The notes under the pieces were generated by a model. The model was not told where the DNA came from, did not search any database, and was given only the letters and a program-made list of their open reading frames with translations. 36,357 bases of DNA from Desulfobacterales bacterium (GTDB taxonomy: Bacteria; Desulfobacterota; Desulfobulbia; Desulfobulbales; BM004). The position numbers and the translations under genes are program-made. The stretch's first letter is position 1. The number at the start of each line of letters is the position of its first letter. Of the stretch, positions 4,292 to 36,357 are shown in pieces. The DNA lies in NCBI GenBank assembly GCA_021647905.1, contig JAKITW010000020.1, positions 1 to 36,357 of the forward strand, given 5' to 3'.

Positions 4292-5296
4292 ATGCCACGT
4301 CATAAACGCATCAATGTTCCGGGAGCGATTCACCATGTCATTACCAGAGGGTTGAATCGTCAGAAGATTTTTCCAGGAGACAAGGACCGGGAAGATTTTC
4401 TTTCTCGTCTCGAAAAGGCACTTTCTCAAACCAGTTGTCACTGCTTGGCCTGGTCGCTCCAGTCGGATCACTTTCACCTTTTAATCCGCACCGACACAAA
4501 ACCTCTTGGCGATCTGATGCGCAAGGTCCTTTCCGGATATGCCATTGCGTTTAATCGCAGGCATCAACGGAGTGGTTATCTTTTTCAGAATCGTTATAAA
4601 TCAATATTGTGCCAGGAAGATGCATATCTCCTGGAGCTTGTTCGCTATATTCACCTGAACCCGGTTCGGGCCGGGATCGTAAAAAACATTGAGGAGTTGG
4701 GTGTATATCGTTGGACCGGCCATGGTGTTCTGGTAGGGCGCAGGCGGAGAAGTTGGCAGGATCGTGATGGTGTCCTTGGCCACTTTGCTGAGAAGAAGCG
4801 GGAAGCTGTAAACCGTTACCGGCAATTTGTATCTGACGGCTTCAACATGGGCAAGCGGAAAGAATTGACTGGCGGTGGCTTGGTACGAAGCGCCGGCGGC
4901 TGGCAAAGCTTGTTGGAAATGCGACGGGCAAAAGCGTACTGGCGTGGAGATGAGCGAATACTTGGTGACAGTGATTTTGTCGGCAATGTGCTCCAGGAAG
5001 CGGAAGAGGAATTAAGCCGGAAAGAGGAGTTGAAAAGACAGGGCTGGGATTTGCAACGGTTGGTGAATGAAGTGTGCCGACTCCTTGCAGTGGATGTCGA
5101 TGATTTGCAGAAAAAAGGCCGTGCCAATAACATCTCAATGGCCAAGGGGGTGATCTGCTATCTCGGGTATTATGAGCTTGGCATCAATGGGGCGGAACTG
5201 GCCAGGTTTTTTAATATTTCCAGGCCGTCTGTTTCAAAAGCGATTCAGCGGGGAGATAAATTTATAAAGAATAATGACCTTAAGGTATTAAGCTAA
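4292..5296 (+). CDS. REP-associated tyrosine transposase (RAYT, Y1/IS200-like) with DnaA-like C-terminal domain
   Basis: The 334-residue protein has the Y1 transposase fold. The opening MPRHKRINVPGAIHHVITRG and the HUH metal-site motif SDHFHLLI (about residues 63-70) are visible. The catalytic tyrosine is probably one of those in the segment FQNRYKSILCQEDAYLLE or in RYIHLNPVRAG just after it. Residues about 250-325 resemble the helix-turn-helix DNA-binding domain IV of DnaA, a known accessory domain in some RAYTs. The enzyme would nick and rejoin single-stranded REP-like hairpins. The gene is complete, and its stop codon lies inside the right flanking inverted repeat. It may act in trans on the palindromic repeats in this window, but that is inference. 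Confidence 0.88.
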   Translation: MPRHKRINVPGAIHHVITRGLNRQKIFPGDKDREDFLSRLEKALSQTSCHCLAWSLQSDHFHLLIRTDTKPLGDLMRKVLSGYAIAFNRRHQRSGYLFQNRYKSILCQEDAYLLELVRYIHLNPVRAGIVKNIEELGVYRWTGHGVLVGRRRRSWQDRDGVLGHFAEKKREAVNRYRQFVSDGFNMGKRKELTGGGLVRSAGGWQSLLEMRRAKAYWRGDERILGDSDFVGNVLQEAEEELSRKEELKRQGWDLQRLVNEVCRLLAVDVDDLQKKGRANNISMAKGVICYLGYYELGINGAELARFFNISRPSVSKAIQRGDKFIKNNDLKVLS

Positions 5297-5453: not shown

Positions 5454-5693
5454 ATGGCAATCAGTTTGAGAATTCCGGCTGACAAAGAAGAATTAATTCG
5501 GAAAGTTGCTCAGAAAACAGGCAAAACGAAAACAGCCGTAATTTTGGAGGCCGTTGATGCAAAATTAGGTCTGCAAAAAAACAGAAAGCAACTGATCCGG
5601 GAGCTTGCCGGCTGGATGCCCCATACTGAAGCGGAAGAATTAAGAGACTCCCTGCAAATTTTCAATCGGATCAACGAAGGGGACTGGGAGTGA
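5454..5693 (+). CDS. vapB: VapB-like ribbon-helix-helix antitoxin
   Basis: The 79-residue protein starts with a ribbon-helix-helix DNA-binding pattern (MAISLRIPADKEELIRKVAQ, then KTKTAVILEAVDAKLGL), as in CopG/VapB-type antitoxins. The acidic C-terminal half (TEAEELRDSLQIFNRINEGDWE) would wrap the toxin. AGGAGA at 5441-5446 sits seven bases before ATG. The stop overlaps the GTG start of the PIN-domain toxin by four bases, which indicates translational coupling. It presumably represses its own promoter at 5372-5400. Confidence 0.82.
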   Translation: MAISLRIPADKEELIRKVAQKTGKTKTAVILEAVDAKLGLQKNRKQLIRELAGWMPHTEAEELRDSLQIFNRINEGDWE

Positions 5694-6085
5694 GACTCGT
5701 TCTTGATACCAATATTTATTGTGATTATGCCGAGGGGGTTCCATCTGTTGTCGATAGCATCGCGGAATTCGGAGAAGAAATTTATCTGCCGGCAGTAGTG
5801 ATCGCTGAATTGACCTTCGGTTTTATGAATGGCACGAAGCAGGAAGACAATGAAAAAAAACTGCAACACATTATCGAGCAACTGCAAATTGAGATTATCG
5901 ATATAAACAAAGATGTTGCCAGAAAATACGCCCTCATTTACCTTCATCTGGTCAAAAAAGGGCGCAGGATTCCGATCAACGATGTGTGGATAGCGGCCTG
6001 TTGTATGAAAATAGGCGGCACCCTTCTCACAAGGGACAGTCATTTTGAAGCAGTTGAATTAATTGACCGTCTCCCCATAGAATGA
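5690..6085 (+). CDS. vapC: VapC-like PIN-domain ribonuclease toxin
   Basis: The 131-residue protein is a PIN-domain nuclease. The first acidic residue is in VLDTNIY (D6), a second in VVIAELTFG, and a third and fourth in PINDVWIAA and LLTRDSHF. These positions match the Mg2+-binding carboxylates of VapC toxins, which cut tRNA or rRNA. The start is GTG 5690, overlapping the antitoxin stop (GTGA). The operon ends before a strong hairpin at 6113-6143 that could terminate it too. All expected acidic positions are present, so the toxin looks intact. Confidence 0.85.
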   Translation: MRLVLDTNIYCDYAEGVPSVVDSIAEFGEEIYLPAVVIAELTFGFMNGTKQEDNEKKLQHIIEQLQIEIIDINKDVARKYALIYLHLVKKGRRIPINDVWIAACCMKIGGTLLTRDSHFEAVELIDRLPIE

Positions 6086-6486: not shown

Positions 6487-7836
6487 ATGACTGATAACAA
6501 AAAAAATCCCAGGGACCCGGTCTGGTATCCCTTTACCCAGATGCAGGAGTTTCTCCATGGGTCGCCCTTTACCATTGCGGCGGCCGAGGGCTGCTGGCTG
6601 ATCGACGAAGCGGGCAACCGCTATCTGGACGGGGTTTCTTCCTTATGGACCAATGTGCACGGCCATCGCCATCCAATGATCGACGAGGCGGTCCGGACCC
6701 AGCTTGCCAGGGTGGCGCACAGCACCATGCTCGGTCTTACCCATCCCGGCGGCATCGAACTTGCCCGGCAATTGATCGAACTTGCGCCCGCTTCTCTCAG
6801 CCGGGTTTTTTATTCCGATTCCGGGGCCACCTCGGTGGAGATCGCCCTGAAGATGGCCTATCAGTACTGGCAGCTCAAGGGCGAGACCAGGCGGCATCTC
6901 TTCCTCAAGCTGGGCGAGGCCTACCACGGAGATACCATCGGCGCGGTCTCCCTGGGCGGCATGGACCTGTTCCACGAGCGGTTCGGCCGGCTGCTCTTTG
7001 ACACTATCACCATTCCCTGCCCCCATCTCTACCGCCACCCCTATGGGGATATCAGCGAGGAGGAGGCCGTGTCGCGCTTCTACGTTGATACCGGGAAAAT
7101 CATCGCCAGGTTCGCTGACCGGGCCTGCGCGGTGATAGTGGAGCCGATCATCCAGGGCGCGGCCGGGATGATCGTCCACCCCGAGGGTTTTTTGAGTCAT
7201 CTGCGGGAGTTGACCCGCAAACATGATCTGCTCCTGATCGTTGACGAGGTGGCGGTCGGTTTCGGTCGAACCGGCAAGATGTTTGCCTGCGAATGGGAGG
7301 GAGTGGAGCCGGACCTGATGTGCCTGGGCAAGGGGATCAGCGGTGGGTATATGCCCCTGGCCGCCACCCTGGCCAGCGAGGAAATTTTTTCCGCTTATCT
7401 GGGCGAGTTCGGCGAGCTGAAGACCTTTTTCCACGGCCATACCTATACCGGCAACCCCCTGGCCTGCGCCGCGGCCCTGGCCTCGCTCCAGGTGTTTGCC
7501 CAGGAAAGGACCCTGACGGACGAGGTGTTCGGGCCCAAGGCTGAAATATACGCCCAGGGCATGGCCCGGCTGGCCCGGCTCGACCATGTGGGCTCGACCC
7601 GGTATCGCGGCTTGATGGGCGGGGTGGAACTGGTCAGGGACAAGGCGAGCCGGGAACCCTATCCCTTTGCCGAGCGGATGGGCAACCGGGTGATTATCGA
7701 GGCCCGCAAGCGCGGGGTGATCCTCCGGCCCCTGGGCGACGTGATCGTGCTGCTGCCGCCGCTGGCCATATCGGTAAAGGAACTGGAGCAGTTGTTTACG
7801 GTCACCGAACAGGCGATTATGGCGGTGTGTTCTTAA
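6487..7836 (+). CDS. bioA: Adenosylmethionine--8-amino-7-oxononanoate aminotransferase
   Basis: BioA transfers the amino group of S-adenosylmethionine to KAPA to make DAPA in biotin synthesis, using pyridoxal phosphate in the cytoplasm. The 449-residue protein has the family opening RDPVWYPFTQMQEF, the substrate-pocket segment GVSSLWTNVHGH, the cofactor aspartate region LLIVDEVAVGFGRTG, and the Schiff-base lysine in LGKGISGGYMPL (about K282). HGHTYTGNPLACAAA follows, as in class III aminotransferases. I chose ATG 6487 because AAGGGGTG lies about eight bases upstream and the length fits. A longer frame reaches back to 6406 without support. No other biotin gene is nearby. A GGGGGCA heptad run follows the stop. 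Confidence 0.93.
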   Translation: MTDNKKNPRDPVWYPFTQMQEFLHGSPFTIAAAEGCWLIDEAGNRYLDGVSSLWTNVHGHRHPMIDEAVRTQLARVAHSTMLGLTHPGGIELARQLIELAPASLSRVFYSDSGATSVEIALKMAYQYWQLKGETRRHLFLKLGEAYHGDTIGAVSLGGMDLFHERFGRLLFDTITIPCPHLYRHPYGDISEEEAVSRFYVDTGKIIARFADRACAVIVEPIIQGAAGMIVHPEGFLSHLRELTRKHDLLLIVDEVAVGFGRTGKMFACEWEGVEPDLMCLGKGISGGYMPLAATLASEEIFSAYLGEFGELKTFFHGHTYTGNPLACAAALASLQVFAQERTLTDEVFGPKAEIYAQGMARLARLDHVGSTRYRGLMGGVELVRDKASREPYPFAERMGNRVIIEARKRGVILRPLGDVIVLLPPLAISVKELEQLFTVTEQAIMAVCS

Positions 7837-7856
7837 GGGGGCAGGGGGCAGGGGGG
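7836..7856. repeat. Heptad array GGGGGCA after bioA
   Basis: About 2.9 units of a G-rich 7-bp repeat lie directly after the bioA stop codon, followed by a unique spacer to the end of lolD. Confidence 0.6.
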
Positions 7857-20812: not shown

Positions 20813-20873
20813 GAGGACAGAGGACAGAGGACAGTAAAGAAAGGGTGCGGGGGACAGGGTGCAGGGGGCAGGG
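20813..20873. repeat. Heptad arrays after dnaK (GAGGACA and GGGKGCA types)
   Basis: Three GAGGACA units (20813-20833) are followed, after a short gap, by GGGTGCG, GGGGACA, GGGTGCA and GGGGGCA (from about 20843). All are 7 bp long but change in sequence. Confidence 0.75.
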
Positions 20874-22084: not shown

Positions 22085-22153
22085 CAGGTGTCAGAAAAAA
22101 ACCAACATCGCCGACCAGAGTCAGGAGGTTAACCTGACACCTGACACCTAAAG
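22085..22153. repeat. ACCTGAC heptads and hairpins after trpS
   Basis: CAGGTGTCAG at 22085-22094 is complementary to the ACCTGAC, ACCTGAC, ACCTAAA run at 22132-22152. GTCAGG/CCTGAC pair locally at 22120-22138. The patch might act as a loose transcription end for trpS, but it has no T-run. Confidence 0.4.
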
Positions 22154-25047: not shown

Positions 25048-25100
25048 AAATGTAGAATGTAGAATTTAAAAAACCGTGAACCGCTGAACCGTGAACCTGG
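25003..25100. repeat. Heptad arrays at the end of waaA and before carA
   Basis: AGAGGAC, AGAAGAC, AGATGAC (25003-25023) lie inside the waaA frame. TGTAGAA occurs twice at 25051-25064. GTGAACC-type units (CGTGAAC, CGCTGAAC, CGTGAAC, CTGGAAC) occupy about 25074-25102. Confidence 0.6.
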
Positions 25101-32907: not shown

Positions 32908-35900
32908 TCAATGCGGGCTGGTCGCCTTTTTCAGCGGTACCGTGTACTCCAGGGTTTCGTCCGGCAGCAGGGCGTGGGTTCGTCTGACCCGGACCCGGAC
33001 CGACTCGCTGTCCTCCTTGTAGAGCATGATGATCTTCACGTCCTCAACAGCGGTCACCGGTTCATCGTCAATGGCGATGATGAGGTCGTTTTTTCTGATT
33101 CCTGTTTTTCCGGCCTGGCCATGGGGGCTGAGATCGGTCACCACTGCTCCGGCCCGGTCCGGTTCTTCGGAGAGCTGTACCCCGATCAGGGGCAGGGGCT
33201 TAAGCGAGGCCGGCGGGGAAAAGAAGTGGTAATCAGCCGTGGCCGGATCGATCTCCCGGCCGTCGTTGTTGACCACCACTGCCTGGGCGACATCCAGCCG
33301 GCGGGCCAGCCGCGGCGGGATCCCGGATTTTTTGTCCACATGCCCCTGACCGGCGATTACCACCATTCGATTATCGGGATGGCTGCTCAGGTATCGGGCC
33401 GCGGCCTCGGCCATGGTCTCGTCCCACAGGGCCTGGGCCTGGATAAAGCCGTTGAACCGGCCGCTGTCATCCGCGCCGGAGTGCATCTTGAAGAACGGGA
33501 TCAACCGGTCCCGGTAGCCGGGCAGGGACAGGTCCCGGTCCGCGGGGAGCGCGGCCCGTTCTTCAGGGGTCAGGGCCTTGAAGTCGCCGTTCTTGAACAC
33601 GCTGCCGACCACCTTTCTTTTCTGGTTCAAGGCAATGATCGGGATCTGGTGGCGCCGGGCAAAGTTGATGATTTCCCGGTAGAGCCGGTAGTCGAATCGC
33701 CACATGTCAAAGTAATTCGATTTTTTCAAGAATTCCCTTTCCTCGATCTTCAGGGCCAGATAGTCGTCCAGGACCTGTTGGGTGGAGCGGTCGAACATCT
33801 CCATCCCAATGGCCAGGGCGGGGTCGCGGGCAAACAGGGCCCGGATGATCCGGAGCTGCAGCTGGTGGTCCTGGTAGCTGGTGTGGTTTTCTCCCACATA
33901 GATCACCCGTTTGCCGGCCAGCTGGTCGATGATCGCGGAAAAGTCCAGGGCCCGGCTGGTCTTGATTCCAGCCGGCGGCGGGGCCACCGGGTAGCGCAGC
34001 CCATGTTCGGCCGCAATCTGTTTTTTTGTCCGGAGCCGGCCGCGGTCAAAGTGGAGAAAGCTGTACTTGCCGTAATGGCGGAGCTTGGCCAGGGCCAGGG
34101 CGGTCTCCTGCCTGGAAGCGGTTGACACCAGTATTGCCACCTGCCCGGGATTGAGCGGGTGGGGCCGGACGTCCAGGGTGAACCCCCCGGGCGGATGCAT
34201 GGCCCGGGCAAAGAGCGAGCGGCTGGTCCTGCCCTGGCCCAGGAAGAGCACCGCGTTGCTGGCCAGTTCCTTGGCTGCGGTATCACTGTCAGCCTCGTTG
34301 ATGATCGTGCAGCCGGTTTGTTGCAGATATTCGACCAGCGGGCCGAAACGGTCCGCATCGGTGTCTGCCGCGATTATCGCGATTTTGTTCTCAGCGCCGT
34401 CGAACCGGGACCAGCTGGGCGCAAGCTCGGCCGGCCCCTGGCTGCGGAGGATGTCCGCGTCGGGATCAAGGATCAGTTCCGCTGGAACCGCCTTGACCGG
34501 CAAAGATACCGGGGTCTCTTTGCCGGTCAGGGTCAGTTCTCTCCTGATATCGCCCTGGGGGGTGCGGATAACCAGCGGCACGGTCAGGTCATAGGGGGCG
34601 GCGGTCCCCTGGACCACCACAAAGCTGAGTATCGGCTGCCCCTTTTTTTCCTGGACCGTGATTTTATCGAGGTAAAGCTCCGGGATATCGGTCCGGGTCA
34701 GCCACTGTTCGAAAAGTTCCTTGAGATCGGTCTTGCCGGTCTTTTCAAAACTGGCGCGCAGGTCGGCCCAGCCGGCCGGCCGGTGCCGCATCCGGGTATA
34801 AAAATCGCGCAGGCCCGCATTAAAGGCCTGCGCGCCCAGCTTGTTTCTCAACAGGTGGAAGAAGAGCGCTCCCTTGCCATAGCCCACGGCCCGGATCTGT
34901 TCCCGGTTGCCGGCGCGGTCGTCGGCGCCGTGGAACCCGGCCAGGGTTATTGTATTGTCCGAATGGACATAGCTGCAGTATTTCAGTATCTGGTCCCGGC
35001 GGTAGCCCCGGTCCTCGCCCCGGTCCGCGGCCAGGGCATGGTCGGCAAGATAGGTGGTAAGCCCCTCGGCCCAGTTTCCGGAACCGTCCGCCACCCGGAC
35101 GGAGTTGCCCAGCCAGGCGTGCAGTATCTCGTGGCCCAGCGAGGTCCTGACGATAAAGGGCAGCCGCACCACTGCCTGGCCGAGCAGGGTGAAGGTGGGC
35201 ATGGCATAGCCGGTGGGCAGCCGGTTCTCGACAATGGCGAACCGCTTATAGGGATAGGGGCCGAGCAGTTTCTCGTACCTGGTCAGATATTTTTTCGCCT
35301 GGTCCCGGTAGCCCTTGGCCAGTTCCCGGTCTTCTTCAAAAAAATAACTGGCCAGGACAACGCCGCTGTCAAGGGTTTCCTCCTCCACCCGGTACGGGCC
35401 GGCCACCAGGTTGATCGAGTCAAGGGGATAGGGGAAATCAAATTGTACCTGCCGGAGACCCGGCGCCGGACCGGGCCCAATAACAATGGTCCTGGTCTCG
35501 GATATGGCCGAGAACCTGTCCGGGATAATAACCGTGAGCCGGAACAGCATCTCTTCCTCGGCCAGGGGCAGCCAGTGGCCGGTCAGACTGATCCCCTGCT
35601 CGCTGATCAGTTCAAGGGACGGACCCCGGTGCGGGTGCTGCCTCCCTGGTGTAGTTGATCTCGATCTCCTGGTCCTGGTCAGCGGCCGGTATCCGCAGTT
35701 GAGCCTTTTCCGGGTCAGCTTGCACCAGGACCCCGTTGATCCTGATCCCGGTGACCTTGAGCCCGTCAAGGTGGAGCGCCAGATCGCGGCCGGCCGGGAT
35801 CGTGATCCGGGAGACTGCCGAGAGCCGGTTTTGGTCGAGATCAAAAGCAACGGTAATATCCTGCCGGGGGACAGAGTCTGATGCGGCAACGGCTACCGGG

Positions 35901-35971
35901 GCAATGCAGAGAATAAGCATGATTCCTGTCCAGAGAAGAAGGGGGAGATGGATGAAACGTGGCATGGGCAT
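32908..35971 (-). CDS. M1-family aminopeptidase / ChaN-like / PDZ multidomain protein, frameshifted near the N-terminus
   Basis: The intended product is about 1,020 residues. It starts at ATG 35971 (AGGA six bases upstream) with a signal peptide (LLLWTGIMLILCIAPVAVAA) and an N-terminal beta domain, and this frame stops at 35612. Homologous-looking sequence continues in the +1 frame to 32908. It contains an M1 zinc peptidase site (HEILH, then E after 17 residues in NWAEGLTTYLADH), then a ChaN/Tiki-type domain (VIYVGENHTSYQDHQLQ, MEMFDRSTQQVLDDYL, GQGHVDKKSGIPPRLA) and a C-terminal PDZ domain (GVQLSEEP to PLKK). M1 enzymes trim peptides, and ChaN domains bind haem or metal. It is probably periplasmic. 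The single shift is near G4/C3 runs at 35615-35627. It may be a sequencing error, a fresh mutation or recoding. Confidence 0.8.
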
Positions 35972-36123
35972 ATCGTGTCCTGGCTATATTATGGATGACA
36001 AGCGGTTTGGTTTGCCTAAAAGCAGTATTACCCCGGGCAAAACGGATACCTGTTCCGCCATGGTCTACCATACCCGATTGTAAACATGAAGTATCGGTTT
36101 GTCAGCAACGACCGTGGGGGGGC

Positions 36124-36242
36124 AGAGGACTGAGGACTGAGGACAGAAGACAGAGGACTGAGGACTGAGGACTGAGGACAGGAGACGAGAGACAGAAGAC
36201 AGGAGACAGAGGACTGAGGACAGAGGACAGAGGGCGGAAGAC
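36124..36242. repeat. Seventeen consecutive 7-bp units, WGAGGAC type
   Basis: Starting at 36124 the sequence can be cut into 17 uninterrupted heptads: mostly AGAGGAC, TGAGGAC and AGAAGAC, with variants AGGAGAC, GAGAGAC, AGAGGGC and GGAAGAC. Nearly all end in AC and are purine-rich on this strand. The phase never slips over 119 bp. Confidence 0.9.
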
Positions 36243-36308
36243 GAAAAAAAAATCGTGGGCAATGAAAAAAAACATGGGGCAGTGATCCTGGTCCGGAATA
36301 TAATATTC

Positions 36309-36336
36309 CCTGACCCCTGACCCCTGACCCCTAAGA
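36309..36336. repeat. CCTGACC heptads near the window end
   Basis: Three exact CCTGACC units are followed by CCTAAGA in phase. The unit resembles the CTGACCT type found before trpS. Confidence 0.75.
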
Positions 36337-36357
36337 CCAGAAAACTGATAGCTCTCA

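Follow-up and report, generated by a model that had tools for sequence, protein, structure and literature searches.

The window considered here, that is, the whole stretch of 36,357 nucleotides, comprises bases 1–36357 of contig C20 in a 2.73-Mb metagenome-assembled genome (MAG) of 118 contigs; the carbamoyl-phosphate synthase encoded in it shares 83% identity with that of uncultured MAGs of the Desulfobulbaceae, which places the genome in or near this family. At 36123–36241 it contains an array of seventeen 7-bp units (heptads). It represents the left arm of a dispersed, non-coding element with a composite structure: a heptad arm, a linker, a core and an inverted heptad arm. The genome carries about 33 copies, situated at gene edges, and the core is specific to this lineage; neighbouring heptad arrays are mostly convergent, and the order of units bears the signature of whole-unit duplication. 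It is likely that the arms are renewed by turnover of whole 7-bp units, and the element may persist at the edges of genes.

Anatomy and copies of the element

The left arm lies on the plus strand. Read from the C, its units 1–9 are CAGAGGA, CTGAGGA, CTGAGGA, CAGAAGA, CAGAGGA, CTGAGGA, CTGAGGA, CTGAGGA and CAGGAGA, and units 10–17 are CGAGAGA, CAGAAGA, CAGGAGA, CAGAGGA, CTGAGGA, CAGAGGA, CAGAGGG and CGGAAGA. The initial annotation, based on the letters of the window, had described seventeen units in perfect phase, in a frame beginning one base later, which makes no material difference. The phase is indeed unbroken, with zero indels. Tandem Repeats Finder (TRF), which had been suggested as a check, recovers period 7 with 15.9 copies and the score of 122, and the identity at lag 7 is 90/112, compared with the mean of 38.4 (standard deviation 4.7, maximum 53) in 5000 shuffles. 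The self-identity is 0.73–0.76 at lags 14, 21 and 28, and 0.15–0.35 at other lags.

The linker, CGAAAAAAAAATCGTGGGCAATGAA, occupies 36242–36266 on the plus strand; in comparison with other copies it is a degenerate version of their linker, an A-tract with CAGTGGG heptads. Next comes the conserved 42-bp core, AAAAAACATGGGGCAGTGATCCTGGTCCGGAATATAATATTC, at 36267–36308 (plus strand), delineated by alignment, a sequence model and a search of the own genome. At its right edge there is a palindrome, GGAATATAATATTCC (36295–36309), which matches itself on the reverse strand (36309–36295) and is predicted to form a 6-bp hairpin. The right arm, at 36308–36332 and assigned to the minus strand, is (CCCTGAC)n on the plus strand, that is, (GGGGTCA)n on the minus strand, and is inverted relative to the left arm. 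In the window copy the inversion is loose: 17 of 25 positions match, and six of 2000 shuffles are equally good.

Nearly all well-preserved core copies have the same polarity and order of parts: a purine heptad arm, an A-tract with CAGTGGR heptads, the core AAAAAAYATGGRGCNNTGATCNTGGNCCGGAATATAATATTC, and a pyrimidine-rich heptad arm. The sequence model of the core yields 33 copies in the own 2.7-Mb genome at E≤1e-3, and the mean column identity in the alignment of 22 copies is 81%. The core pattern with at most three mismatches is found in 14 places, and its backwards control in none. In BLAST against the same genome, the array region matches 47 places and the right flank (36236–36357) about 20 further ones, while the left flank (35990–36125) has zero further places.

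No convincing copy of the core was found in the 242 other genomes of the order (243 searched, including the own one); the filters of this search were stricter, recovering 25 of the 33 own copies, so weak copies elsewhere may be missed. A partial hit in one genome, G159 (23.9 bits), was treated as chance. The core is absent from four named relatives, has no exact match in viral contigs and no match in phages; in plasmids there are only short matches to the CCCTGAC heptads.

In some copies two further dispersed repeats are situated between the heptads and the core, one of 37 bp, GACCCTCCTTCGCCTGATGGCTACGGCGGGCAAGCAG, and a 68-bp relative of it, reading GACCCGCCTTCGCC...GTGGCAAGCAG. Locations of these repeats, of either length, include L098:7271-7307, L033:1258-1294, L216:2943-2979 and L217:3166-3233, among others. 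At L019:2370 a truncated copy of the core is fused to other sequence, taaccactcacaggg...ccctgtgagtgg, probably by a later insertion.

Short dispersed intergenic inverted repeats are known as repetitive extragenic palindromes (REP), bacterial interspersed mosaic elements (BIME) and miniature inverted-repeat transposable elements (MITE). The copy number, the conserved core, the inverted arms and the intergenic placement would agree with a non-autonomous mobile element of the MITE or REP kind, in which the arms or the palindrome serve as recognition site for a transposase that moves the core with its inverted heptad arms. Moreover, there are four Y1_Tnp genes in the genome, one of them in the window (4292–5296, plus strand; with a C-terminal DnaA-like stretch), the best NCBIfam match being the model of REP-associated tyrosine transposase (RAYT), below the cut-off. 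However, neither the core nor a heptad array is present around any of the four genes, and hence RAYT/REP mobilisation was rejected. The gene in the window has its own flanking inverted repeat, AAAGGGGACGGAGTTAGCTTAATA, immediately before and after it, which is unrelated to the core. The variation of the right-arm units among copies argues against sequence-specific recognition of the arms, and no target duplication is in evidence. Unlike REP, BIME and MITE, the element has no fixed terminal sequence and no linked transposase that we could find, and its arms are heptad arrays of variable length. Mobility of this kind is thus an unlikely explanation.

Placement, orientation and structure potential

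To describe the arrays in general, we surveyed 952 kb of the own genome in stretches picked without regard to repeats. Period 7 accounts for 27 arrays and its multiple, period 14, for 22, compared with 0–7 for other periods and none in shuffles. The unit families in this genome are CAGAGGA/CTGAGGA, CCCTGAC, CCCTGCA, AAATGTG, AACCAAG and others. Although 85% of the surveyed sequence is coding, 32 of 36 arrays are non-coding (p=1e-22), and the other four lie at the 3' ends of open reading frames (ORFs); arrays are often situated directly 3' of stop codons. An interpretation as a coding repeat was rejected, since the arrays are outside coding sequence or solely at ORF 3' ends. At L072:11800-11840, L098:7217-7273 and L091:18659-18683, the 3' end of a predicted gene enters a heptad array, which would provide the C-terminus and the stop codon.

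The arrays are oriented relative to the genes. The purine strand is nearer the 5' neighbour gene in 18 of 25 intergenic arrays, or in 22 of 29 if the four ORF-end cases are included (p=0.008); as genes were called with a simple hexamer-based program, individual distances may be off. Of 32 copies of the core family, 25 have an upstream gene that is directed into the element (p=0.002), and the orientation of the downstream gene is unbiased (14 vs 12). The core contains TATAAT; as no −35 partner is visible by eye and the downstream genes show no bias, we rejected it as a promoter.

Outside the core family, neighbouring arrays at most 220 bp apart form 25 convergent and six divergent pairs (p=0.0009), and a further 14 share one strand; this count pools the own genome, other Desulfobulbales and two cyanobacteria, and the stretches of the relatives were partly chosen for holding arrays. 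The cyanobacterial share is small (7 vs 2). Coreless heptad arrays occur throughout the order and in cyanobacteria, with unit sequences varying by species, as do the spacers between convergent arms. Thus the 7-bp period, whose absence from relatives the initial annotation would have taken as contrary evidence, is present in related species. In one relative, G035 (L225:3540-3640 and 5645-5880), heptad arms flank a repeat with GTCATTGCGAGCGGAGCGCGGCAATCC and its near inverse.

In the window copy, the neighbouring gene, encoding an M1 peptidase/ChaN/PDZ protein (32908–35971, minus strand), is directed away from the element, and the gene on the other side is beyond the contig end, which is only 25 bp past the right arm. 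The adjoining gene seems to be split across two frames near 35610–35640, with the N-terminal part (35612–35971) in the other frame, a possible frameshift or assembly error; the search with its M1/ChaN protein returned no relatives.

Many other arrays also lie at contig ends (e.g. in C7, C15, C22, C25, C47, C53, C60 and C115), as would be expected if repeats break short-read assembly, with the true length or sequence of an array being collapsed or scrambled. However, many arrays and cores are inside contigs, with consistent anatomy and unique flanks, and independently assembled related genomes hold arrays of the same type. An assembly artefact is therefore very improbable as the source of the arrays, although the copy number of those at contig ends may still be wrong.

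The purine richness noted in the initial annotation is real, but there is no homopurine tract: C is present in 17 of 17 units and T in six of 17. The tract was rejected as a homopurine mirror repeat (H-DNA), and the suggested triplex is unlikely because the left arm is not homopurine. A clearer structural potential lies outside that array, in the G-quadruplex (G4) motif on the minus strand of the right arm, at 36308–36331 in the window copy. Such motifs are seen in 22 of 33 right arms, compared with 0.007 expected per 120 bp, whereas the left arm has no run of three G per unit. The predicted RNA fold of the whole element is modestly better than that of shuffles (z −2.2 and −2.1).

These features, along with the sense-strand placement after stop codons and the near-constant unit positions 1, 3 and 6, would also suit a regulatory or RNA element with selected 7-nt spacing, such as tandem protein-binding sites in mRNA, a 3' hairpin that stabilises the mRNA, or a switch based on Rho or G4; translational regulation was proposed for TAACTGA arrays (MacGregor 2015, PMC4679880). 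On the other hand, the units differ widely among species and within the same gene neighbourhood, the left and right arms show no covariation by inspection of copies, three of 200 shuffles fold as well, Rfam has no match for the element at E≤1, and the genes beside the arrays in the window have unrelated functions. We regard selection on the spacing as rather improbable.

Probable turnover of the heptad units

The initial annotation saw in the combination of constant period and drifting sequence either a constraint on spacing or copying in whole units. We considered 53 heterogeneous CAGAGGA-family arrays of the own genome, with a chain defined as units having at most three mismatches to CAGAGGA. 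In 677 units there are 11 phase shifts, and hence not every array keeps its phase unbroken. Between adjacent units 15% of the positions differ, so that substitutions far exceed phase shifts.

Identical variant units cluster: in arrays of at least eight units, the count is 122 at lag 1, compared with 82.6 ± 7.2 in unit shuffles, and 98 at lag 2, compared with 75.5 ± 5.8. This is the trace expected if one or two whole units are duplicated after a mutation. The array at L009 has a higher-order repeat of 21 bp, that is, three units. Together with the 7-bp arrays in related species, these observations support the copying of whole units. When unit order is compared between loci, as a test for the copying of whole arms from one locus to another, the mean pair score is 4.06 vs 3.56 ± 0.06 for shuffles, the mean being inflated by runs of equal units, and the best pair (15.4) is below the best shuffle (15.9).

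The right arms are mostly uniform within a copy, with the unit differing among copies, a pattern that local renewal of the individual arms would produce, whereas the left arms are heterogeneous. The assumption that slippage arrays are normally uniform is thus too strong, as the two arms of the same elements differ in this respect; heterogeneous arrays are also described for Xanthomonas by Rehm et al. 2015 (PMC4692102).

The probable history is then as follows. The arms would be renewed locally by gain or loss of whole 7-bp units, either by slippage during replication or by unequal recombination, and base substitutions would accumulate between rounds of duplication. With growth in steps of 7 bp and few small indels, an array would stay in phase even as its sequence drifts; recently expanded arms (the right ones) would be uniform, and older arms (the left ones) mixed. 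A constraint on spacing is not needed, since rare indels and duplication in 7-bp steps suffice; moreover, phase shifts do occur, and the relative L110 has a different heptad in the same neighbourhood. The element might have spread by copying of the core together with the arms, and its location, for the most part immediately beyond the coding sequence, might explain why it persists. If there is any effect, it would most likely be mild and act at mRNA ends, through the structure of the 3' untranslated region or through a G4 next to the adjoining gene, and would not be a spacing-dependent code.

Several points weigh against this scheme. Positions 1, 3 and 6 of the left-arm units (C, G, G) are 97–99.6% constant, while the variation falls on positions 2, 4 and 5, and gains of C are next to absent. 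Simple neutral substitution does not predict either feature, but the force of this objection is weakened by units being shared among arrays and by the chain definition itself. Further, no transposase, no target duplication and, between close strains, no empty site of a core copy is in evidence for the dispersal of the core, whose origin the scheme does not explain.

Relation to known heptamers and other arrays of the window

Heptamers are cited as the most abundant category of long simple sequence repeats (SSRs) in most genomes, with slippage as the proposed origin (Mrazek et al. 2007, as cited in PMC4679880). As cited there, the SSRs with 7-nt units are simple arrays, whereas the element considered here is composite and bears a core.

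The closest match is provided by the dispersed intergenic heptamers GGGAATC and GGGGA(C/T)T, perfect or heterogeneous, of Xanthomonas and Nostoc (Rehm et al. 2015, PMC4692102). These show 70–75 convergent inverted pairs per Xanthomonas genome, unequal conservation of heptamer positions (1–4 and 6 in Xanthomonas), location nearer the 5' neighbouring ORF (behind its stop on the coding strand, or ahead of an ORF on the non-coding strand), and the ability to form G4. Our arrays share with these the dispersal and the enrichment in non-coding regions, the proximity to the 5' ORF (with the core family being mostly sense to the upstream gene), the convergent pairs, the heterogeneous units and the unequal conservation of unit positions. 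However, the G4-forming unit GGGNATC/GGGGAYT is not seen here: the left arm is not capable of forming G4, and the right arms are, but with different units. Hence we treat the element as a variant of this class and not as a member of its unit family. Further differences are the several unit families within one genome and the 42-bp core between the arms in 33 copies, the latter not being among the features given in the parts of that paper considered here.

TAACTGA direct repeats are described in marine Beggiatoaceae, cyanobacteria and Bacteroidetes (MacGregor 2015, PMC4679880). They too are intergenic heptamer arrays; the length differences between strains are mostly 7 nt, and in some species several heptamers are mixed in one intergenic region. 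In BOGUAY one unit dominates, mostly just before start codons, whereas here the units are diverse and purine arrays are mostly situated 3' of stop codons. TAACTGA is absent from the unit families listed above for the own genome. We found no published report of heptamer repeats in Desulfobulbaceae in a literature search limited to open-licence papers.

By these comparisons the element is a lineage-specific version of the known class of bacterial intergenic heptamers, which it closely matches, with a multicopy core between the arms. Such arrays have long been on record in bacteria, but there is no consensus on how they arise or what they do; here they are tied to a core that is defined and multicopy. 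Placement at gene edges in convergent orientation, as described for Xanthomonas, holds here, and other Desulfobulbales share the convergent pairing, as do cyanobacteria in a small sample. A loose observation thereby becomes a testable rule: why seven, why convergent and why at gene edges. A speculative generalisation, which we put forward only tentatively, is that heptad arrays in many bacteria are convergent arms growing inward from the gene edges of a spacer around a lineage-specific core, by some process of copying in 7-bp units that keeps the skeleton C-x-G-x-x-G-x. If so, no earlier family would have had a defined core in many copies, and the one considered here would be the first. The approximately 33 paired arms in one genome lend themselves to comparisons of age and turnover. 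Until strains or long reads are compared, the finding is of limited interest as a sign of a new mechanism.

The window contains other heptad arrays. Units GAGGACA at 20813–20834 (plus strand) start 1 bp 3' of the dnaK stop codon and are followed by a pyrimidine-rich heptad-like sequence and then by a terminator conserved in the relatives L110 and L116, both of which have no heptad array at this site. An array of ACCTGAC units (22132–22149, minus strand) has TTTCAGGTGTCAG as its inverted partner, which lies some 50 bp further left, immediately 3' of a tRNA synthetase gene. AGGGGGC units (7836–7855, plus strand) are situated directly at the stop codon of a gene for a bioA-type aminotransferase, and a short array of AATGTAG units (25049–25065) lies directly 3' of the stop codon of a kdtA-type gene. 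In L110, the same gene neighbourhood carries AAGTTAC heptads at two of the sites.
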